Below are positions 580 through 25,524 of a stretch of DNA of 64,000 bases, in pieces (the stretch's first letter is position 1; each line of letters starts with the position of its first letter). The stretch spans positions 1-64,000 of IMG/VR virus record IMGVR_UViG_3300042556_001330. The stretch is one strand, 5' to 3'. The notes beneath the pieces were generated by a model. That model worked only from the letters and a program-made list of their open reading frames with translations, searched no databases and had not been told where the DNA came from. A program made the position numbers and the translations under genes. The DNA is from a virus.

Positions 580-1361
580 TGATGGATGTAAATAAAATAT
601 TATCCGACAATGTTTTTGTATTTGAACAATATAAAAATAAAATATTATCAACACTTGCAAGTGATACAATAGATGACGGCACAATCCAATATAAAATGAA
701 TGAACATGGATATCGTTCCGATTCATTTAAAAATAAAACAAAATTTAATGTATTAACATTGGGTTGTTCTTGGACAATGGGTATTGGTGTCGATAATAAT
801 AAAATCTGGCCAAATCTAATTGGTAATAAATTTGGTAAAGTTTTTAACTATGGTATGTATGGAGTATCTACATCATTTATTGCAAAAACACTTTATAAAA
901 TAGTATCATCTGAATTTATACCGGATATGGTTTTAATAATGTGGCCTGGATTTAGTAGGAGAGATTATATAAGAGAAAATGGTTCATTTAAAAAAGTCGG
1001 AGGATTTAGAATTGCAAACGATAGTGATTTGGTTTGGAAAAATGAAAATGAAGATTTATTATTTATAGAATTGAGAAATGATTATCAAGATTTGATGACA
1101 TTTTGGGAAGCTTATACATTTGTCGAAACTATTGCAAAATTATATAACATTAAAATATTTCATACAATTGCAGGATATTATTATGATGTTTTCAAAGAAT
1201 TGGAAACCGAATTAAAATATACTATAAATTATGATAGATTTTTTGACCCAATTAATTGTTATAAAAATGATTTAAAGGGTAGGGATAATCACCATCCCGG
1301 TGAAATCTGGCATGAGAATTTTTCAAAACAATTTTATACTTATATTAAAAATAAGTTATGA
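579..1361 (+). CDS. SGNH/GDSL-like hydrolase
   Basis: The 260-residue protein has the hallmarks of an SGNH-fold esterase or acyl-transferring hydrolase. A block I-like LGCSWTMGIGV with the candidate nucleophile Ser lies at residues 62-72, and a C-terminal DNHHPGEIWHENF carries the candidate catalytic Asp/His. A NYGMYGVSTSF segment is consistent with block II. No signal peptide is seen, so the protein should act in the cytoplasm. Family members remove or add acyl groups on sugars and other substrates; the substrate here is unknown. The start overlaps the preceding stop by one base (TAATG) and the end overlaps the epimerase start (ATGA), so the genes are translationally coupled. A second SGNH-like protein is encoded two genes on. 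Confidence 0.75.
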   Translation: MMDVNKILSDNVFVFEQYKNKILSTLASDTIDDGTIQYKMNEHGYRSDSFKNKTKFNVLTLGCSWTMGIGVDNNKIWPNLIGNKFGKVFNYGMYGVSTSFIAKTLYKIVSSEFIPDMVLIMWPGFSRRDYIRENGSFKKVGGFRIANDSDLVWKNENEDLLFIELRNDYQDLMTFWEAYTFVETIAKLYNIKIFHTIAGYYYDVFKELETELKYTINYDRFFDPINCYKNDLKGRDNHHPGEIWHENFSKQFYTYIKNKL

Positions 1362-2329
1362 AAATTCTTATCACAGGTGGTGCAGGGTATTTGGGCTCAG
1401 TAATTACTGGAGTTATGTTAAATGCTGGATATAGTGTTACTGTTTTAGATAAATTACTATTTAATCAAACCTCTTTATTACAATATACATCTAATTCAAA
1501 ATTTAAATTCATATATGGTGATGTTCGTAATTTAACCGAATTGGAAAGATTATGTAAAGAACATGATGTAATAATCCCATTGGCAGCTATTGTGGGATTT
1601 CCTGCATGTGCAGCAGACCCCAAATTAGCAAAAGAAATTAATTTTGACCAAATTGTAAATATAGTTAGATTTACAAATGGTTTAGATAAAAAGATTCTAT
1701 ATCCAAACACAAATAGTGGTTATGGATTAGGAACGGGTGAATTGGAATGTAATGAAGAATCACCACTTACACCCATTTCAGTTTATGGACAAACTAAATG
1801 TGATGCTGAGAATTTTTTAAGAACTTCAACCGATGCAATTACTTTTAGATTAGCAACCGTATTTGGGGTTTCACCAAGAATGAGAACGGACTTGTTGGTA
1901 AATGATTTTGTTTACAAGGCAATCACAGACAAATATATTGTAGTATTTGAAAAATCCTTTAAAAGAAATTTTATTCATGTAGAAGATGTTGCATCTGCAT
2001 TTTTATTTATGTTAAAAAATTATAAAACATACAATAGTGAAGTTTTTAATGTAGGATTGACTTCTGCAAATTTAAATAAACAAGAACTATTGGAAAAAAT
2101 ACAAAAATATGTAAAAGATTTTGCAGTAGTATATGATGATTATTATCAAGACCCAGATAAAAGAAATTACATAGTTTCAAATAAAAAAATAGAAGATACT
2201 GGATGGAAACCTGAATGGGATTTGGATATGGGAATTAAACAATTAATTCAAGGATATCAAATGATTGTTCCAAAGATGGGTGCAGAATTCAGAAATGGGT
2301 TTCCGTTAGGTTATGCAAATTTGGGATAA
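1358..2329 (+). CDS. NAD-dependent sugar epimerase/dehydratase (extended SDR)
   Basis: This 323-residue protein is an extended short-chain dehydrogenase. The N-terminus MKILITGGAGYLGS carries the Rossmann GxxGxxG dinucleotide motif (residues 7-13). The YGQTK motif supplies the catalytic Tyr143 and Lys147, and the NTNSGYG stretch at 117-123 provides the upstream Ser/Thr. Length and motif spacing match NDP-sugar 4-epimerases and dehydratases such as GalE or RmlB relatives, but the sequence does not fix the substrate. It sits between two SGNH hydrolases and upstream of an RmlC-like epimerase, which suggests synthesis of a modified nucleotide sugar. The ATG overlaps the previous TGA. Confidence 0.9.
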   Translation: MKILITGGAGYLGSVITGVMLNAGYSVTVLDKLLFNQTSLLQYTSNSKFKFIYGDVRNLTELERLCKEHDVIIPLAAIVGFPACAADPKLAKEINFDQIVNIVRFTNGLDKKILYPNTNSGYGLGTGELECNEESPLTPISVYGQTKCDAENFLRTSTDAITFRLATVFGVSPRMRTDLLVNDFVYKAITDKYIVVFEKSFKRNFIHVEDVASAFLFMLKNYKTYNSEVFNVGLTSANLNKQELLEKIQKYVKDFAVVYDDYYQDPDKRNYIVSNKKIEDTGWKPEWDLDMGIKQLIQGYQMIVPKMGAEFRNGFPLGYANLG

Positions 2330-2330
2330 T

Positions 2331-3161
2331 ATGGATTTTAGTAAATATAAATTTTTTTATGTAAATGGTTGTTCACATAGTGAAGGTGGAGGCCTAGAAC
2401 CAAGTGAAATTAGGGGAATTGGTGTAATTCCAATATATAAAGAATTATATGGTATAGATTGGAAATCTACAAGTGAAGTTAATTTTGGAAAACGATTGGA
2501 AGAAATTATAGGAATAAAATGTATAAATGAAGCCAATTCAGGAGGAAGTACATCAAGAGTTGTAAGAATGACTTATGATTTTATTTACAATAATTGGGAA
2601 AATAAAGATAAATTTTTTCTAATTTTAGAAAAACCAGATTCATCTCGTTCAGATGTATTTAGTGCAAAACATAATGAATATTTTATTGTAAATTCCAAAG
2701 TTAATAATTCGATACACACATTTGCCGGTGCATCTAGAGATTATTTTAATTTATCATATAGAAAAGAGGATAGTTCATCAAAACATATATTTGAAAATTG
2801 GTATGAAAACCATTATAGTTTTGAAAATAATATTAGTCAAGATGAAAAGGCATTTATTGGATTATATTCTTTTTGTAAATTAAATAATATTAAAATTTTT
2901 ATAATGAATGGAAATTCATTATATTTTTGGGAAGTATTTGATAAATCCGATATTATAAAATTTTCAAATAAAGAAAATGAATCCGATGACATATACAGTT
3001 GGTGTCTTCGAAACAAAATGACAATACATGATGAAACGTTGGGTAAAATGACCGAATATGTAGATACTCATCCTGGATACTTTGGTCATATAGAATATGC
3101 TAAAAAACTGGCAAAATTTATAGGATGGAATCAAAAAAATAATAAAAATAAATTAATATGA
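2331..3161 (+). CDS. Second SGNH-like hydrolase
   Basis: I place the start at the ATG two bases after the epimerase stop. An in-frame ATG at 2313 would add six residues and overlap the epimerase. The product begins MDFSKYKFFYVNGCSHSEG, in which GCSHSEG is a block I-like nucleophile region, and ends with a DTHPGYFGHIEYAKKL segment resembling the block V Asp-x-x-His. A NEANSGGSTSR segment fits block II. It is clearly diverged from the hydrolase at 579-1361, so it is not a recent duplicate. Related SGNH-like proteins occur in T4-like environmental phages, usually without known function. The C-terminus overlaps the RmlC-like gene by four bases (ATGA). Confidence 0.7.
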   Translation: MDFSKYKFFYVNGCSHSEGGGLEPSEIRGIGVIPIYKELYGIDWKSTSEVNFGKRLEEIIGIKCINEANSGGSTSRVVRMTYDFIYNNWENKDKFFLILEKPDSSRSDVFSAKHNEYFIVNSKVNNSIHTFAGASRDYFNLSYRKEDSSSKHIFENWYENHYSFENNISQDEKAFIGLYSFCKLNNIKIFIMNGNSLYFWEVFDKSDIIKFSNKENESDDIYSWCLRNKMTIHDETLGKMTEYVDTHPGYFGHIEYAKKLAKFIGWNQKNNKNKLI

Positions 3162-3706
3162 GTTATAAAGATAAAAAGTGGAATGATATAGAAGTTTCAT
3201 TTTTAAAACCATTTGATAAAGATGTACCGGTATTTTCACCATCGGTATATAGAGAATATAGGGGAGAAATTTGGACAACATATCATCCGGAAGAACATCC
3301 TGTTCATAATTTTATGCACGGAGATTTGAAGGTACATGGTAGATTTTCAAAATCATACAAAGGTGTATTAAGAGGATTACATTGGGATAATAAGACTTGG
3401 AAATTAGTTCAAGCATTGGTGGGTGATATATTTTTAGTAGTTTTGGATGTTAGAAAAGATTCACCAACATATGGTGATTGGAATTCATATTTACTTACTG
3501 AAAAAACCAGAGACCAAGTATTAGTTCCACCGGGATTTGCAAACGGACATTATGCACTAACAGATTGTGTATTTCATTATAATTTATTTTATGAAGGTGA
3601 TTTTGTTGAAGAAAATGCACAAGGTGTTGTAAAGTGGAATGACCCTGAATTTCAAATCGAATGGCCAACCGATTCACCAATATTACAAAAAAGAGATAGA
3701 TGTTAA
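3158..3706 (+). CDS. RmlC-like dTDP-4-dehydrorhamnose 3,5-epimerase family protein
   Basis: The 182-residue protein matches the RmlC cupin family in length and motifs. LRGLHWD (71-77) carries the catalytic His75, the VPPGFANGHYAL segment (about 123-134) is the family's conserved cupin strand, and a Tyr follows at about 141 in HYNLFY. RmlC enzymes epimerise 4-keto-6-deoxy nucleotide sugars at C3 and/or C5. With the SDR gene upstream this suggests a deoxysugar branch, but RmlA, RmlB and RmlD equivalents are not all visible here, so the pathway may borrow host intermediates or continue left of the window. It overlaps both neighbours by a few bases. Confidence 0.88.
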   Translation: MSYKDKKWNDIEVSFLKPFDKDVPVFSPSVYREYRGEIWTTYHPEEHPVHNFMHGDLKVHGRFSKSYKGVLRGLHWDNKTWKLVQALVGDIFLVVLDVRKDSPTYGDWNSYLLTEKTRDQVLVPPGFANGHYALTDCVFHYNLFYEGDFVEENAQGVVKWNDPEFQIEWPTDSPILQKRDRC

Positions 3707-13930: not shown

Positions 13931-15673
13931 ATGGCAGATAAATCAATATTTAGTAGGTTACAAAAATTATTTTCAACTAACACCATAGTAAGAAAAACTG
14001 AAAATGGTGTAAAAGTTATCGATACGGATGAGTGGCAGAATATGACCACCAACCTTGTTGATAGATTTATGAAGTTGAAGGTAACAAACTATGGAACGGG
14101 CCAATTAGAATCATCAATGGCATATCAACAAGTTAGAATTGATTTGTTTAGAGATTATGATTCAATGGATATGGACCCGATACTATCATCAGCATTGGAT
14201 GTATATGCAGATGAATGTACTGCTAGAAATGAACAAGGAAATGTATTAAAAATACATCACGACGATGATAATGTTAAACAAATATTAGAAAATCTATTCT
14301 ATGATATTCTTAATGTTGAATTTAACTTATGGCCATGGACAAGAAACTTAGTAAAATATGGTGATTTCTTTTTACAATTAGAAATGGCAGAAAAAATTGG
14401 TATTGTAAATGTGATGCCGCTATCTACATATGAAGTTAGTAGAGTTGAAGGATTTGACCAACAAAATCCACAAAGAGTTAAATTTGTATACTCACCATAC
14501 CAAAATCCATTAGGAGCATACGGCCAAACTGCAAAGAAAGAATTTGAAAACTATGAAATGGCCCACTTCCGATTAAATTCAGATTCAAACTTTTTACCTT
14601 ACGGAAAATCTATGATTGAAGGTGCAAGAAGAGTTTGGAAACAATTGATGTTAATGGAAGATGCTATGTTGATTCATAGAGTAATGAGAGCTCCTGAAAA
14701 AAGAATATTTAAAATTGACGTAGGTAATATTCCACCAAATGAAGTGGATAACTACATGCAGAAAATTATCAACTCATCTAAAAAAGTTCCATTTGTTGAC
14801 GAAAGAACTGGTGAGTATAACTTAAAGTATAATGTACAAAATTTAATTGAAGATTACTATATGCCAGTACGTGGTAATGATAATGGTACTTCAATTGATA
14901 CTTTAAAAGGATTGGAATACAATATGATTGATGATATTAACTACCTAAAAGGTAAGTTGATGGCAGCATTGAAAATTCCAAAAGCATTTTTAGGTTATGA
15001 AGAAGAAACGAATGGTAAAGCAACTCTTGCATCAATGGATGTTAGATTTGCAAAAACAATTGAAAGAGTTCAAAGAGTTTTAATTTCAGAATTAACCAAA
15101 ATTGCAATTGTTCACTTATACGCACAAGGTATAGATGATGACAATTTGACTAACTTTACATTAGAATTAACTATTCCATCTAAAATCTATGAACAAGAAC
15201 AAGTTGAATTGTATACTTCAAAAGTAGCATTGATTCAACAAATGCAACAAACCAAAATGTTCTCAAAAGAGTGGATGTATGAGACTGTAATGAAAATGGC
15301 CAAGGATGAACAAGACGAATTAACACTTTCAGTATTAGAAGATACTAAACAGGCATTTAGATTAACTTCAATTGAAACACAAGGTGTAGACCCTGCAAAA
15401 GAAACTGGAACCGAAGGCCCTACCAATGTAGAAGAAGAATTAAATAGATTAAAAACTGAATTAGAGGAAGAAGGCAATGTAGGTAGACCAAAAGACCCAG
15501 TTAGATATGGTAAAGATGACCATCCAGAAGGGAGAGACCCGTTAGGTATTAAAACTCTAAAAGCAAAAGAAGGTTCGGTAAAATATAAACCAAGAAATAA
15601 TTATCAAGAAATATTTAAGGATATGAATGGTAATAAAAAAACTATTTTAACCGAAGATTTAACAAAAGAGTAA
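13931..15673 (+). CDS. Portal vertex protein (gp20-like)
   Basis: The 580-residue protein is the dodecameric portal through which DNA enters and leaves the head. Recognisable T4 gp20-type segments are RDYDSMDMDPILSSALDVYA near residues 76-95, GRAR-like SMIEGARRVWKQLMLMEDAM (about 224-243), and LKIPKAFLGYEEETNGKATL near residue 350. It is slightly longer than T4 gp20 (524 residues) because of a charged C-terminal tail rich in Glu/Lys. It lies downstream of the terminase and upstream of the protease, as expected for a T4-like head module. No membrane segments are seen. The start follows an A-rich leader without a Shine-Dalgarno sequence. Confidence 0.95.
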   Translation: MADKSIFSRLQKLFSTNTIVRKTENGVKVIDTDEWQNMTTNLVDRFMKLKVTNYGTGQLESSMAYQQVRIDLFRDYDSMDMDPILSSALDVYADECTARNEQGNVLKIHHDDDNVKQILENLFYDILNVEFNLWPWTRNLVKYGDFFLQLEMAEKIGIVNVMPLSTYEVSRVEGFDQQNPQRVKFVYSPYQNPLGAYGQTAKKEFENYEMAHFRLNSDSNFLPYGKSMIEGARRVWKQLMLMEDAMLIHRVMRAPEKRIFKIDVGNIPPNEVDNYMQKIINSSKKVPFVDERTGEYNLKYNVQNLIEDYYMPVRGNDNGTSIDTLKGLEYNMIDDINYLKGKLMAALKIPKAFLGYEEETNGKATLASMDVRFAKTIERVQRVLISELTKIAIVHLYAQGIDDDNLTNFTLELTIPSKIYEQEQVELYTSKVALIQQMQQTKMFSKEWMYETVMKMAKDEQDELTLSVLEDTKQAFRLTSIETQGVDPAKETGTEGPTNVEEELNRLKTELEEEGNVGRPKDPVRYGKDDHPEGRDPLGIKTLKAKEGSVKYKPRNNYQEIFKDMNGNKKTILTEDLTKE

Positions 15674-15689
15674 TAAACTAATATAAAAA

Positions 15690-15699
15690 CATATTTATA
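15690..15699 (+). promoter_or_regulatory. Late-promoter-like element CATATTTATA
   Basis: CATATTTATA lies in the 47-base gap after the portal gene, 21 bases before the ATG at 15721. Confidence 0.5.
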
Positions 15700-18130: not shown

Positions 18131-18514
18131 ATGACCACTATTGGTTCTATACTCATTGGTAAGATTATCTTTTATTATATTGTAGATTTGGCACAAAAAG
18201 GAATGAAATATTTCCAAGGAAAACCAAACTATAAAAAAGAGGTTAAAAGTATTTTAGATTCGATTGCAGATAATAAAAATGTAATTGAAGATATATCTAA
18301 AATGATTGACCCGAAAAAAGGAATTGACAATAGTACCGCTGAGGATATTGTTAATATGGGATATATTAAGACACAGATAATTAAAATGGTGGATAGTACA
18401 AATGGTGAGTTGGATGAAACTGAATTGAAAAATCAATTAAAGACCATACTTATCAAATCTTGGACACCAATGAGTAGTGTGGCAATTGAAAAAGTTAAAA
18501 AGGATTTAAAATAA
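18131..18514 (+). CDS. Small membrane protein of the head operon
   Basis: From the ATG at 18131 the product is 127 residues; the same frame is open back to the slippery run at 18098, and a TTG at 18122 is an alternative. The N-terminus MTTIGSILIGKIIFYYIVDL is a likely transmembrane helix. The remainder is a charged helical domain (KKEVKSILDSIADNKNVIEDISKMID). The upstream codons (VDENLILGV) extend the hydrophobic start naturally, which supports either an upstream non-ATG start or a frameshift fusion with the EF-hand protein. Its stop overlaps the ATG of the prohead protease. Function is unknown. Confidence 0.65.
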   Translation: MTTIGSILIGKIIFYYIVDLAQKGMKYFQGKPNYKKEVKSILDSIADNKNVIEDISKMIDPKKGIDNSTAEDIVNMGYIKTQIIKMVDSTNGELDETELKNQLKTILIKSWTPMSSVAIEKVKKDLK

Positions 18515-19104
18515 TGAGTAAAGGACTATTAATAGAAACACACCTATTTGAGGCAAAAATGGTGAAAGAAGAAAACGGAACTTATTTAGTTAAGGGTATT
18601 CTTCAAAGAGCAGGTGCACCAAATCAAAATCATAGAAGGTATCCTAAAGAAATCTTAGAAAGGGAGTGTAAAAAATACGAACAACTTATTAAAGAAAGAA
18701 GAGCATTGGGTGAATTAGACCACCCAGATTCTCCGGTTATCAACTTAAAAAATGTATCACATAACATTAGAGAAATTTGGTGGGATGGTGATGATGTTTG
18801 TGGTGTAGTAGAAATTCTTTCAACTCCTTCCGGAAATATTCTTAGAGAATTATTAAAGAATAATATTCGTTTAGGTATTAGTAGTAGAGGATTGGGTTCG
18901 GTAAAAGAACTTAGAGATGGTACTGTAATGGTTCAGGAAGACTTTGAATTGGTTGGATGGGACTTTGTATCAAATCCATCAACACATGGTGCATTTATGG
19001 CTCCTATGAACGAAAGTAAACAATGGGCAAAAGTAGCAGAGGAATGTGGTAAGTGGTGTAAGTCACAAGATTTAATGAGAGAAATTATAATAGAACTAAA
19101 TTAA
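18514..19104 (+). CDS. Prohead protease (gp21-like)
   Basis: The 196-residue protein is the T4 gp21-type serine protease that matures the prohead by cleaving scaffold, capsid and internal proteins. The catalytic His is in GELDHPDSP (H70) and the Ser in GISSRGLGS (121-129). The conserved LQRAGAPNQNHRRYP segment (30-44) and WDFVSNPSTHGA near residue 150 are also typical. Length is close to T4 gp21 (212). It lies upstream of the scaffold and capsid genes, separated by several small candidate internal proteins that may be its substrates. T4 gp21 cuts after L/I-x-E; matching sites occur in several neighbours. Confidence 0.95.
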   Translation: MSKGLLIETHLFEAKMVKEENGTYLVKGILQRAGAPNQNHRRYPKEILERECKKYEQLIKERRALGELDHPDSPVINLKNVSHNIREIWWDGDDVCGVVEILSTPSGNILRELLKNNIRLGISSRGLGSVKELRDGTVMVQEDFELVGWDFVSNPSTHGAFMAPMNESKQWAKVAEECGKWCKSQDLMREIIIELN

Positions 19105-21194: not shown

Positions 21195-21621
21195 ACAAAA
21201 ATTAAACGAATTTTCTTTGGTAGCCATACTGGGTGGTATAGCATTGTTTGCTTTTTTCAGTATGTTATTTGGAAGACTTGCGGATAATGTTGACGCTTAC
21301 TATAATGGTAGAAGTGTAGAAATACAAAGAGCTCTAAAAAAAATATTAAAATCATTATACAAAAATAATACATTTTTAGCAAGAATAGATGATGACGCAG
21401 AAAGAATGGGAGTTGGTGGTGGATTAATATCTGCAATCATGGGATACCCTGAATTAAAATCGGAATTAAATTCTTACAAAAATGACAAAAATATTAATTT
21501 TGAAGAACTTAAAAATGAATTAAGTAAAGTTTTAACAAAAGGAATATTTGAAGAAGCACAAGATAGAGGATTAATAGTTAATTTCGAAAAACAAATCAAA
21601 AATACAAAATGGAGCAATTAG
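21184..21621 (+). CDS. Small membrane-type head-operon protein
   Basis: The 145-residue protein has a strong hydrophobic segment, FSLVAILGGIALFAFFSMLF (about residues 9-28), followed by a charged helical domain with DDDAERMGVGGGLISAIMG. The first nine residues (MANKQKLNE) precede the span. The gene overlaps both neighbours by about a dozen bases. A membrane protein in a head operon might anchor the initiating prohead to the inner membrane, as T4 gp40 does, or be packaged and enter the membrane on injection. Neither is shown by the sequence. Confidence 0.65.
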   Translation: MANKQKLNEFSLVAILGGIALFAFFSMLFGRLADNVDAYYNGRSVEIQRALKKILKSLYKNNTFLARIDDDAERMGVGGGLISAIMGYPELKSELNSYKNDKNINFEELKNELSKVLTKGIFEEAQDRGLIVNFEKQIKNTKWSN

Positions 21622-21980
21622 CATCATTATTATTACATAGCAGAACACAGGCACATTCATTTCATTTAGGAGTTAAAGGTACAGGTGCACTATCTGCACA
21701 TTTGGCATTAGGAAATTATTACGATTCTATCGGTGGTATCGTTGATGGATTAGTAGAAGCATATCAAGGACAATATGGTTTAATTAAATTACAACCTGTT
21801 AGTGGTTTAGATACAAACAATGATATCAAAAATATAATTGCATACTTTGATAAATTAGTTGCAGCAGTTGCAAAATTGAGACAAGACGAAAAATTACAAA
21901 TGAGTTGGTTACAAAACGACATAGATACTATTGTAACTTTATTATATTCTACAAAATACAAATTAGTTAATTTACAATAA
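21609..21980 (+). CDS. Dps/ferritin-like-fold phage protein (DUF5856-type)
   Basis: The 123-residue protein has the segment SRTQAHSFHLGVKGTGALSA followed by HLALGNYYDSIGGIVDGLVE and AYQGQYGLI. This pattern belongs to a small T4-like phage family that I recall as DUF5856 and that resembles four-helix Dps/ferritin proteins. The His/Glu/Asp residues spaced along helices 1 and 2 could bind metal. Whether it stores iron, protects packaged DNA or is purely structural is unknown. The gene overlaps the preceding gene by 13 bases and shares one base with the next start. Confidence 0.7.
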   Translation: MEQLASLLLHSRTQAHSFHLGVKGTGALSAHLALGNYYDSIGGIVDGLVEAYQGQYGLIKLQPVSGLDTNNDIKNIIAYFDKLVAAVAKLRQDEKLQMSWLQNDIDTIVTLLYSTKYKLVNLQ

Positions 21981-22279
21981 TGAAATTAATAAATCTAATA
22001 CCATTAAAAGAGGAAGCTGTTAAACTAAGAGCTGGATTCAAAAGAGTATCGTCTGAATATATAGATGCCATAAGAAAATATGAAGGACTAACAACTCGTC
22101 AAAAAATGATGAGTAAATCATATTTTGATGAACAAGATGAAGATAGAAAAAATCAATATCTCTATCAATTAAAAAAACATCAAGAAGATATCAAAGATGC
22201 AAAAGATGAATTAAATAAAGTAGAAAAAGACTACGAAAGAGAATTAAAAAAACAATTGGAATACCAAAAACCATATTAA
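21980..22279 (+). CDS. Small charged coiled-coil head-operon protein
   Basis: The 99-residue protein begins MKLINLIPLKEEAVKLRAGF, sharing its leader with the protein at 20505-20756. The remainder is a long, highly charged helix (KKHQEDIKDAKDELNKVEKD), probably coiled coil. In T4, internal head proteins such as IPI-III carry a short N-terminal capsid-targeting sequence that gp21 removes; this leader is a candidate equivalent. It lies immediately upstream of the bS21 gene with a six-base gap. Confidence 0.7.
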   Translation: MKLINLIPLKEEAVKLRAGFKRVSSEYIDAIRKYEGLTTRQKMMSKSYFDEQDEDRKNQYLYQLKKHQEDIKDAKDELNKVEKDYERELKKQLEYQKPY

Positions 22280-22285
22280 TCAGTT

Positions 22286-22462
22286 ATGTTGATAGTTAGT
22301 GTTAAGAACGGAAATATAGAGTGGGCATTGAAGGATTATAAAAGAAAAGTTCAGGCAACAAAACAAATAGAAGAACTTAGAGATAGAAAGAATTTCACCA
22401 AACCTTCCATTAGAAAGAGATTACAAAAAGAAGAAACTATAAGAAAAAACAAACTATTTTAG
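22286..22462 (+). CDS. rpsU-like: Ribosomal protein bS21 homologue
   Basis: This 58-codon gene encodes a bS21-like protein. It begins MLIVSVKNGNIEWALKDYKR, then EELRDRKNFTKPSIRKR and a basic tail ending RKNKLF. This follows the bS21 plan of an N-terminal strand, the 'ALr.fKr' helix, the '.r....y.KPs..r.rk' segment and a Lys/Arg-rich C-terminus. bS21 binds the 30S platform near the 3' end of 16S rRNA and is known to be encoded by many phages. In Flavobacterium ribosomes bS21 helps hide the anti-Shine-Dalgarno tail, so a phage copy might tune initiation on its SD-less mRNAs. The gene sits directly before the structured leader of the scaffold gene. Confidence 0.88.
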   Translation: MLIVSVKNGNIEWALKDYKRKVQATKQIEELRDRKNFTKPSIRKRLQKEETIRKNKLF

Positions 22463-22648
22463 TAGTTTTCTTTAGTTTTCTAAAAATTTTAGATATATAT
22501 TATCAAATATCTCATTTTTTATTATGAGATTACAAGACATCGTTGATTAATGAATACCCTTCTCTATAAGGTGTGACCGAACAATCAACATAATTACATT
22601 GGAGTTCCCTACAAGAATAACTTCACAACAAAATTTAAGGAAAAAAAG
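22463..22648 (+). promoter_or_regulatory. Structured leader upstream of the scaffold gene
   Basis: This 186-base gap is the longest non-coding stretch in the window. It contains a 7-bp hairpin ATCTCAT/ATGAGAT (22509-22515 with 22524-22530). A second 7-bp stem GTTGATT/AATCAAC (22542-22548 with 22583-22589) encloses a small CCTT/AAGG hairpin. An 8-codon frame, ATG to TAA (22524-22550, MRLQDIVD), begins within the first hairpin. An AAGGA sequence lies 7 bases before the scaffold ATG. AGATATATATTATC at 22491-22504 may be a promoter. Together these look like a regulated leader for the scaffold and capsid genes, but no known riboswitch class is recognised. Confidence 0.5.
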
Positions 22649-23893
22649 ATGGCAAATTCAAAATTATTGAAAGAAGCAATCGCTGACGCTAAAGCCGTTA
22701 AAGAAACTGCATTAGCTAACGCTAAGTTAGCTTTGGAAGAGGCATTTACTCCTAGACTTCAATCTATCTTATCTCAAAAGATGAGAGCAGAAGCTGAAGT
22801 TGAAGATATGGAAGCTGACAAAGTTGACGAAGAATTAAACTCAACTGGTATCGGGTCTAAAGTAGACGCAGGATACGCTGAGACTCCAGGTGCAAACCCA
22901 ACTTTAGATGCACATACTGATTTATCAGTTGGTGTAAAACAAGATGGTGGTAAACCTGAACAAGCTGGTACTGACTATAAGAAAGTAGCAGACATTTCTG
23001 AAGAAGAAAATCCATTCGCTGACAAAGAAGATGACAAAGATGCAGAAATTGCAGAATTGAAAGCTAGATTGGCAGAATTAGAAGGTGAAGATTCTGAAGA
23101 AGAAAAAATGGAAGGTGAAGATGAAATGGGCATGGATGACATGGGCATGGATTCTGAAGATTCTATGGATATGGATTCTATGGACATGGGTTCTGATGAC
23201 GAAGAGTCTGAAGATGATATGGACTTAGAAGCAATCATCAGAGAATTAGAAGCTCAATTAGGTGATGACGATTCTGAAAAAGAAGAAGGCATGTACGAAG
23301 CAGAAGAAGAAGAAGAAGAAGCTAAAAACGAAAATTTAGCTGATGGTTCTGAAGCTGGAACTGACAAAGGTGAAGACCCTAAAGTTGTAGTAACTAATGA
23401 AGCTGAAGAAGATGACAAAAAAGACGATGTAATCGACTTAGAAGAAATCTTAAGAGAAATGGAAGCTGATATGAAAGGTGATGACAAAGAAAAAGTTGAC
23501 GAAGCTGAAGAAGAAGAAAAAGAAAAAGAACTTAACGAAGCTTACAAAACTATCAAGTCTTTACAAAAAACTATCAACGAAGTAAACTTATTAAACGCTA
23601 AGTTATTATTCGCAAACAAATTATTCAGAGCACACAACATGACTAACGAACAAAAAGTGAAAGTGATTGAAACTTTGGATAGAACAAACTCAGTTAGAGA
23701 AGTTAAATTGGTATACTCTACATTAGCAGAGAATTTCAAATACACATCTAACAAATCTACTAAAAAATCTATTTCTGAAGGAATTGCAAGCAAAGTAACA
23801 AAATCTACTAAGCCTGCAGTAGCTAAACAAGTAATTGCTGAATCTACAAATTTCGCTGACAGATTTAAGAAATTAGCAGGTATTATTAAATAA
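22649..23893 (+). CDS. Prohead core scaffold protein (gp22-like)
   Basis: The 414-residue protein is extremely acidic in its middle (about 130-310, dominated by Glu, Asp and Met). Its N-terminus is helical (MANSKLLKEAIADAKAVKET). Its C-terminal domain has KLLFANKLFRAHNMTNEQK followed by TNSVREVKLVYSTLAENFK, which matches the conserved C-terminal helices of T4-like scaffold proteins. The scaffold forms the core around which the capsid protein assembles and is degraded by the prohead protease. It is longer than T4 gp22 (269) because of the acidic repeats. It is preceded by a structured leader and an AAGGA Shine-Dalgarno-like sequence, and many codons end in C, as expected for high expression. 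Confidence 0.88.
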   Translation: MANSKLLKEAIADAKAVKETALANAKLALEEAFTPRLQSILSQKMRAEAEVEDMEADKVDEELNSTGIGSKVDAGYAETPGANPTLDAHTDLSVGVKQDGGKPEQAGTDYKKVADISEEENPFADKEDDKDAEIAELKARLAELEGEDSEEEKMEGEDEMGMDDMGMDSEDSMDMDSMDMGSDDEESEDDMDLEAIIRELEAQLGDDDSEKEEGMYEAEEEEEEAKNENLADGSEAGTDKGEDPKVVVTNEAEEDDKKDDVIDLEEILREMEADMKGDDKEKVDEAEEEEKEKELNEAYKTIKSLQKTINEVNLLNAKLLFANKLFRAHNMTNEQKVKVIETLDRTNSVREVKLVYSTLAENFKYTSNKSTKKSISEGIASKVTKSTKPAVAKQVIAESTNFADRFKKLAGIIK

Positions 23894-23916: not shown

Positions 23917-25524
23917 ATGGACTTAAAAAAAATTATGACTGGCGCAAACCCTCAAAGCATTATGCTTGAGCAAACAAGAGGTTTGAAAGCTAAGTGGGAA
24001 AAAACAGGTTTGTTAGAGAACGCGGGTTCTGAAACAACTAAGCATGGTATGGCAGTAATGTTAGAAAACCAAGCAAAACAATTATTAGACGAAGCTACAA
24101 GAACAGGTACATCTGCAGGTTCTGAAGAGTGGGCTGGTGTGGCATTACCATTGGTAAGAAGAGTTTTCGGAAGCATCGCTTCTAAAGAATTCGTTTCTGT
24201 ACAACCAATGAACTTGCCTTCAGGTCTTATCTTCTACATGGACTTCAAATATGGTACTAACCCAGCAGGTAATCCAAACTTTACTGGTTCTTCATTATTC
24301 GGTAATGGTGGAACTTTCGGTAAAGATTCTTTATCTCCATCAGGTAACAAATTAGGTTCAACTCAAGTAGCTGAAGGTGGTTTGTATGGTGCAGGTAGAT
24401 TCGGATATACAATCAACAACGCTACTGCTGCAATCACTGCAACAGTTGCTTCTGCATCTTTAGCAGATATCGACTACGATTTATCAGTTTCAGCTGTTTC
24501 TGCATCTTTTGCAGCTAACACTTTGAAGAAAGTAACTGTAGCATTGCCTGCAGACGCTGATTTTAATGGTATTAGAGCATTCGAATTAACTATGTTGACT
24601 GGTTCAAACTTAGCTTATTTCCCTCAATACACTACTAAGAATGGTAACAATGTTGAATTCGTAGTAAGTGGAACAGCTACAGCTCCATCTGTTGGAACAT
24701 CTTTAGCATACCACGTACAACCAACTGATATCTCAAGAGGTGACTTCGAAGATAGAGGTAATGATTTGGCTATCCCAGAAATCGAATTAGAATTGAAATC
24801 TGAGCCTATCGTTGCTAAGACAAGAAAATTAAAAGCTATTTGGACTCCAGAATTAGCTCAAGACTTAAACGCTTACCATAGTGTAGACGCTGAAGCTGAG
24901 TTAACTCAAATGTTGTCTGAGTACATCTCTTTAGAAATCGATTTAGAAATCTTAGAAATGTTACAACAAAATGCTTTCACAACTGACTACTGGTCTTCTA
25001 AAGTAGGATATGACTGGAATGGTGCTGGATTCTCTATTGATTCTAACGCTGCTGCAGCATCTGCTTACACTAAGAGCACTTGGTATCAAACATTAGGTAT
25101 CAAATTACAAAAGGTATCTAACAAAATCCATCAGTTAACAATGAGAGGTGGTGCTAACTTCGTAGTAGTATCTCCAAACGTTGCAACTATTTTAGAATCA
25201 ATGAACGGATTCTCTGCAAACCCAGGTAAAGACGCTTTACAATTTGCAGCAGGTGTTTCTAACATCGGTTCAATCTCTAACAGATATGATGTTTACAAAA
25301 ACCCATACATGACTGAGAATGTAATCTTGTTAGGTTTCAAAGGTTCTAACTTCTTCGAAACAGGTGCTGTATACGCTCCATATGTTCCGTTGATTATGAC
25401 TCCATTAGTTTATGACCCAACTAACTTCACTCCAAGAAGAGGTGTTATGACTAGATACGCTAAGAAAATCGTAAGACCAGAGTTCTACGGTAAGATTATC
25501 GTTGATGGTTTAGATACTCTTTAA
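23917..25524 (+). CDS. Major capsid protein (gp23-like)
   Basis: I start at the ATG at 23917, giving 535 residues, close to T4 gp23 (521). Typical features are the cleavable N-terminal region, EEWAGVALPLVRRVFGSI, the QPMNLPSGLIFYMDFKYG segment, and the C-terminal TPRRGVMTRYAKKIVRPEFY. Residues about 150-260 are an inserted beta-rich domain; its core resembles the 195-residue protein encoded at 16597-17184. The protein assembles on the scaffold and is trimmed by the prohead protease. Many Phe, Asn, Asp and Tyr codons end in C, unlike most neighbours. A rho-independent terminator follows. Confidence 0.96.
   Translation: MDLKKIMTGANPQSIMLEQTRGLKAKWEKTGLLENAGSETTKHGMAVMLENQAKQLLDEATRTGTSAGSEEWAGVALPLVRRVFGSIASKEFVSVQPMNLPSGLIFYMDFKYGTNPAGNPNFTGSSLFGNGGTFGKDSLSPSGNKLGSTQVAEGGLYGAGRFGYTINNATAAITATVASASLADIDYDLSVSAVSASFAANTLKKVTVALPADADFNGIRAFELTMLTGSNLAYFPQYTTKNGNNVEFVVSGTATAPSVGTSLAYHVQPTDISRGDFEDRGNDLAIPEIELELKSEPIVAKTRKLKAIWTPELAQDLNAYHSVDAEAELTQMLSEYISLEIDLEILEMLQQNAFTTDYWSSKVGYDWNGAGFSIDSNAAAASAYTKSTWYQTLGIKLQKVSNKIHQLTMRGGANFVVVSPNVATILESMNGFSANPGKDALQFAAGVSNIGSISNRYDVYKNPYMTENVILLGFKGSNFFETGAVYAPYVPLIMTPLVYDPTNFTPRRGVMTRYAKKIVRPEFYGKIIVDGLDTL

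Follow-up and report, generated by a model that had tools for sequence, protein, structure and literature searches.

A phage ribosomal protein bS21 encoded directly before the scaffold gene carries arginine in place of the tyrosine that steers the 16S rRNA tail in Flavobacterium johnsoniae

Among the head genes of a T4-like myovirus we find a real phage bS21, ordinary in kind, whose unusual features are a sense-strand slot directly before the scaffold gene and the loss, throughout the phage's lineage, of the tyrosine at position 54 (F. johnsoniae numbering; Arg53 in the phage protein). In F. johnsoniae, Tyr54 stacks on A1534 and steers the 3' tail of 16S rRNA into a pocket of bS18 and bS6, and either Y54A or truncation of the bS21 C-terminus de-represses mRNAs bearing a Shine-Dalgarno (SD) sequence, Y54A costing SD-less mRNAs little (McNutt et al., 2023, PMC9976891). 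As judged from aligned sequences, lineage-wide loss of Tyr54 is new, earlier work on phage bS21 having reported an aromatic residue at this position. Should it unmask the anti-SD, a phage would be uncovering that element in hosts of a phylum whose ribosomes normally keep it masked, which bears on a question open since 2019, namely whether phage bS21 affects the choice of mRNAs by the ribosome at all.

The window is a stretch of 64,000 nucleotides (positions 1 to 64,000) of the IMG/VR virus record IMGVR_UViG_3300042556_001330, which comprises 64,396 bases in all and holds one copy of bS21 (Table 1). The earlier note recognized the bS21 plan in the 58-residue product (MLIVSVKNGNIEWALKDYKRKVQATKQIEELRDRKNFTKPSIRKRLQKEETIRKNKLF), and profile searches bear this out: Pfam PF01165 (Ribosomal_S21) matches residues 4-55 with 50.6 bits (E 1.6e-13) and the NCBIfam S21p equivalog (TIGR00030) scores 42.9 bits (E 3.1e-11), exceeding the curated cut-offs of 27 and 28.95 bits, respectively, over nearly the whole protein. 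The top PDB sequence matches are the bS21 chains of 9i5v (38 bits), which from its sequence we read as a Bacteroidota chain, and of F. johnsoniae 7jil (36 bits), followed by Bacillota (27-28 bits); by this search the phage protein is of Bacteroidota type. It resembles F. johnsoniae bS21 in its three predicted helices and, along most of its length, in sequence (about 45-50% identity), and differs by Arg for Tyr54 and a one-residue deletion near position 10. An AlphaFold2 model (pLDDT 80) places the helices at residues 11-24, 27-35 and 40-57, and Foldseek/VIA comparison of this model with the PDB returned 11 matches, all of them bS21 or mitochondrial S21 chains and all weak (E at least 0.3, Z 3.1-4.4), the F. 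johnsoniae chain not being among them. A scan of viral sequences in IMG/VR found 79 bS21 loci with 73-95% identity to the window's protein, and gene order and strand around bS21 are identical in those with flanking sequence. The gene is under purifying selection, with a pN/pS of 0.143 overall and 0.101 in residues 35-58 (52 distinct coding sequences); given the related loci, the conserved order and strand and this ratio, the reading frame is not a chance one.

Table 1. Features of the head-gene region of the window and the evidence for each.
Feature	Position	Strand	Evidence or remark
TerL	11287 (start)	+	
T4-like portal protein (gp20 type)	13931..15673	+	PHROG 213, E 4e-64
T4-like prohead protease (gp21 type)	18514..19104	+	PHROG 207, E 3e-54
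DUF5856 / PHROG 858 protein	21609..21980	+	usually just upstream of bS21
99-aa protein	21980 (start)	+	between the DUF5856 gene and bS21
Phage ribosomal protein bS21, 58 aa	22286..22462	+	start ATG 22286, stop TAG 22462; Pfam, NCBIfam and PDB matches, synteny in relatives, pN/pS
AGA codon of Arg53, aligned to Tyr54 of F. johnsoniae bS21	22442..22444	+	alignments, residue table
ATATATTAT, variant of motif ATATTTAT, between bS21 and scaffold	22495..22503	+	putative function
Structured RNA leader of scaffold gene	22539..22629	+	covariation; model R1, 109 bits in the window; no Rfam family
Leader helix P1	22542-22548/22583-22589	+	
Leader helix P2	22555-22561/22568-22575	+	
Leader helix P3	22600-22606/22619-22625	+	
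AAGGA, SD-like sequence of scaffold gene	22637..22641	+	conserved in close relatives
Prohead core scaffold protein, 414 aa	22649..23893	+	position before MCP; homology to immuto and Mel-JY01 counterparts
T4-like major capsid protein, MCP (gp23 type)	23917..25524	+	PHROG 138, E 2e-72; 54% to Flavobacterium phage immuto

The position within the head-gene cluster, also claimed in the earlier note, holds both in the window and in its relatives: portal, protease, scaffold and MCP lie on one strand in T4 order, as PHROG matches and the gene order indicate, and bS21 directly precedes the scaffold gene with a gap of 186 nt. The scaffold protein itself has no Pfam or PHROG match and is identified by position and homology. 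No near DNA match to the window was present in the phage collection; among named phages, Microcystis phage Mel-JY01 and the immuto phages of Flavobacterium come closest by MCP and TerL (51-55% identity). Since the immuto phages, which infect Flavobacterium sp. LMO8, rank with the closest relatives in culture by these two proteins and the bS21 is nearest to those of Bacteroidota, the host is probably a member of the Bacteroidota, in agreement with the Bacteroidota setting assumed in the earlier note.

Phage bS21 genes near head genes and the hypothesis of a late takeover of translation are both published already (Mizuno et al., 2019, PMC6375957; Chen et al., 2022, PMC9723584). No other ribosomal protein is as frequent in phages as bS21, which occurs mostly in aquatic ones, and the copy of HTVC008M enters E. 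coli ribosomes (70S) (PMC6375957); that phage infects Pelagibacter, and its bS21 is of the alphaproteobacterial type, from the host. Among 900 published phages, bS21 often lies 2-4 genes from the protease and MCP genes, and in Bacteroidetes phages, where it is antisense among head genes and expressed late, preferential translation of phage mRNA has been proposed (Chen et al., 2022, PMC9723584); the takeover suggested for the window in the earlier note is essentially this mechanism. Like the freshwater Bacteroidetes clades a-e of that study, for which Bacteroidota hosts were predicted and late expression was shown, the window has a Bacteroidota-type bS21 near TerL, portal, protease and MCP, within about ten genes of the latter three. 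Unlike those clades, whose genomes reach 331 kb, whose bS21 is antisense and in which residue 54 is aromatic (61/61 phage bS21s), the window and its syntenic relatives have bS21 on the strand of the head genes, directly before the scaffold gene, with Arg in the window's protein. In the antisense Tyr54 examples that we found (L153/L374, L375), the MCP is very distantly related.

The earlier note also drew an analogy to anti-SD masking in Flavobacterium. This analogy needs correction: the protein is a Bacteroidota-type bS21, but the masking residue, aromatic in a Bacteroidia-type masking bS21, is Arg here. Of the two findings that the note named as refuting its reading, a missing family match and loss of the contacts with 16S rRNA, bS18 and bS6, the former does not apply, but one key contact, Tyr54-A1534, is lost. 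Counted as distinct sequences in a sampling seeded with the window sequence, and thus not as population frequencies, residue 54 in the window phage's lineage is Arg in 73, His in five and Gln in one, and the sense head-slot phages as a whole have 73 Arg, five His and one each of Gln, Lys, Met and Tyr. Phage bS21s encoded outside the head module, or on the strand opposite to it, are all Tyr (17/17), as are 79 of the cellular Bacteroidota proteins, the remaining one having His; this cellular set is mostly Flavobacterium with a sample of the phylum, and the phage's own host may differ from it at residue 54. E. coli bS21 has Lys at the aligned position. Within the lineage Arg is retained via AGA, CGA and AGG codons. 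Masking by an Arg54 bS21 cannot be assumed, and unmasking is our best guess. An arginine at the SD-controlling residue in a large, conserved natural lineage poses a one-residue question for F. johnsoniae, in which the residue is known and mutants exist.

For grouping we preferred the MCP tree, which has far more columns than the bS21 tree (63 columns, many unresolved forks). It places the 55 Arg/His/Gln rows on one side of a branch with support 99, and the neighboring group (support 98) comprises eight head-slot Tyr54 bS21s together with a large set of phages that showed no bS21; immuto is one of these, and its complete record has none. Where the slot is visible in this sister lineage, 47 of 55 loci show no bS21 and eight carry the Tyr54 form. 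Such phages therefore need neither Arg54 nor bS21, and the related Tyr54 and bS21-less phages are natural controls. The bS21s of sister T4-like phages L460, L461, L462, L463, L467, L469, L471 and L475, in the same head slot, are longer, with an N-terminal extension and Tyr54. A rule that the head slot implies a non-Tyr residue was dropped on account of the eight sister-lineage proteins and L403.

We tentatively favor a mechanism in which a late, ribosome-entering bS21 loosens anti-SD masking. The paralogue would be produced with the head proteins and would replace host bS21 in the 30S subunit, the only demonstrated incorporation being that of a different phage bS21 into E. coli ribosomes. With Arg in place of the A1534-stacking Tyr54, the 16S 3' tail is predicted to be held less firmly than in host ribosomes, and a weaker hold would leave the anti-SD easier to reach, comparable to the situation in F. 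johnsoniae Y54A, while SD-less mRNAs would still be translated. Late initiation might then be tilted modestly to the benefit of SD-bearing mRNAs, including that of the scaffold gene in the window's subgroup. In favor of unmasking we count the identity of the protein, its slot and strand, the low pN/pS, the loss of Tyr54 and the MCP grouping, together with the Y54A effect, the entry of HTVC008M bS21 into E. coli ribosomes, and the scaffold SD and the SD excess in Arg54 genomes described below. It should be noted that an arginine might likewise stack on A1534 or be held to it by electrostatic pairing, and that the optional nature of Arg54 and of bS21 itself in the sister lineage speaks against unmasking.

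SD use gives this mechanism a mixed reception. In keeping with the earlier observation that most starts are A-rich and SD-less, 6/55 gene starts in the window reach an SD pairing of -4.5 kcal/mol or better, with 5.7% expected from shuffles, and positions -10 to -14 and -3 upstream of phage gene starts are A-rich. The scaffold gene alone among 14 head-region genes has an SD conserved in close relatives, found at -4.5 kcal/mol or better in 15/15 distinct upstream sequences (MCP, 0/17); it is absent in more distant Arg54 phages (e.g. L129, L131-L136, L138-L142). As several Arg54 lineages lack this SD, we dropped the idea that Arg54 always goes together with it. Strong SDs precede 44/752 starts (5.9%) in six Arg54 genomes, a number that none of 60 permuted anti-SDs attained (mean 20.5, maximum 32), and 17/536 starts (3.2%) in seven Tyr54 genomes, where 3/60 permutations were as high (mean 12.6); immuto has 3/142. 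The Arg54 excess over Tyr54 yields a Fisher p of 0.03 with relatedness ignored, the Arg54 phages being one lineage with little independence. Conservation of SDs over ortholog groups was not significant (8 groups, 4.5 expected, maximum 8). A genome-wide shift to SD use was not observed; the excess is small and the genomes are SD-poor overall. This SD-poverty, the patchy scaffold SD in Arg54 phages and the lack of significant ortholog conservation weigh against unmasking; the SD data are compatible with a mild form of it and do not demonstrate it. The phage bS21 gene also differs from cellular rpsU, which in the sampled Flavobacteriales mostly carries GAGAGGAGGT upstream, an extended SD: at -4.5 kcal/mol or better, 0/22 distinct bS21 upstreams have one, and the phage gene thus lacks the mark of Bacteroidia-type rpsU autoregulation. 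In 3/4 relatives (G005, G007, G008), whose genomes are otherwise SD-poor, an 85-aa open reading frame (MKCLKNKETGNIIRVDDKQ...) has a conserved, near-perfect extended SD of the ATGGAGGTAAACT type.

Timing can be approached through a motif in the intergenic gaps. On the coding strand, ATAT(T/A)TAT occurs in 15/16 intergenic gaps of the window against 1.2 in dinucleotide shuffles, and exact ATATTTAT occurs in 12/16 against 0.7 expected, its reverse complement in 0/16. Copies lie at e.g. 15691, 25604, 26750, 34622, 47002 and 56329 and, since many stand ~30 nt before start codons, the motif is probably the phage's late promoter. The nearest intergenic-gap copy upstream of bS21 is that at 15691; with the variant that follows bS21, this suggests that the protease unit would end with bS21 and that a new unit would start with scaffold-MCP. 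From this arrangement we infer late timing for bS21.

Upstream of the scaffold gene, the gap contains an apparently undescribed RNA leader structure, supported by covariation. Its three helices of 7 bp are paired in 98% of cells (36-51% in sliding controls), and 10/21 pairs are altered on both sides, which 0/500 shuffles equalled. None of 4227 Rfam models matched the 64 kb at gathering, and nothing meaningful appeared at E<=1 in 22200-22900. Searches with the covariance model detect a single strong copy in each of ten Arg54 records and Mel-JY01 (53.7 bits), located before the scaffold gene; Tyr54 records and immuto have no significant copy, and weak second matches in G009, G010 and G415 are treated as chance. 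Four phages that showed no bS21 (L412, L419, L427, L488) have weak, well-paired matches ~1.1 kb before MCP, at the scaffold start, and these diverged copies suggest that the leader belongs with scaffold rather than with bS21. The idea of a bS21-dependent element was abandoned for the same reason, and an upstream reading frame within the leader (MNTLLYKV*) was discarded by eye, its frame and start being unconserved. Mel-JY01 and LR756508 have bS21 in the same protease-scaffold interval as the window, with a clear leader match in the former and a weak one in the latter. Residue 54 is Lys and Met, respectively; the Mel-JY01 protein is just 26% identical to the window's, and Mel-JY01 genes are SD-led.

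The main rival to unmasking is a neutral substitution, in which phage bS21 tops up or replaces the host protein during late protein synthesis with masking unchanged and Arg54 tolerated or equivalent. Most conserved positions are kept and the fold probably is too, phage genes are SD-less like those of the host, with the A-rich positions given above, the sister lineage has Tyr54, and Chen et al. (2022, PMC9723584) favor a host-like function. The near-fixation of Arg54 against 79/80 Tyr in cellular Bacteroidota and 17/17 in other phage bS21s suggests a changed contact, however, and together with the small SD excess in Arg54 genomes leads us to consider this explanation rather unlikely, if a serious one. 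At the other extreme, the lineage might build phage-specialized ribosomes with an uncovered anti-SD through a one-residue switch (Arg for Tyr54), the mRNA of the scaffold gene, bearing its new leader and conserved SD, being one of the preferred clients; we regard this as unlikely.

Displacement of host bS21 could instead serve to cut initiation on host messages. HTVC008M bS21 did lower in vitro translation in the E. coli system, to about 5% (PMC6375957), and the window's gene is located with late genes, but the authors of that study noted that their result possibly reflects host mismatch, and a shut-off would harm the phage at the peak of capsid synthesis, its genes being as SD-less as those of the host; we find it improbable. 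An extra-ribosomal role, with this basic protein binding the adjoining leader or being packed in the virion, draws on the strong conservation of the leader and its start <80 nt after the bS21 stop, and virion packaging was raised by Chen et al. (PMC9723584). Yet the diverged leaders in the four phages in which no bS21 was found imply that the leader is independent of bS21, and in Mel-JY01 two genes separate the two, making such a role very improbable.

Some further observations concern the relatives and the window at large. Mel-JY01 (L283) is assigned to Microcystis, yet its MCP and TerL are near those of Flavobacterium phages and it combines an SD-led genome with bS21 and the same RNA leader; the host assignment may merit re-examination. 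Two or three bS21 genes occur in some Bacteroidota genomes (G100, G115, G130, G210, G324, G379). Two relatives with longer sequences, G005 (L302-L303) and G007 (L288-L289), have about 18-25 tRNA genes as well as a tmRNA whose tag is ...DLMAFVG.DYAVAA, the window having neither. At 1358-3706, the window carries genes for an NAD-dependent epimerase and a dTDP-4-dehydrorhamnose 3,5-epimerase, likely for sugar or surface modification.
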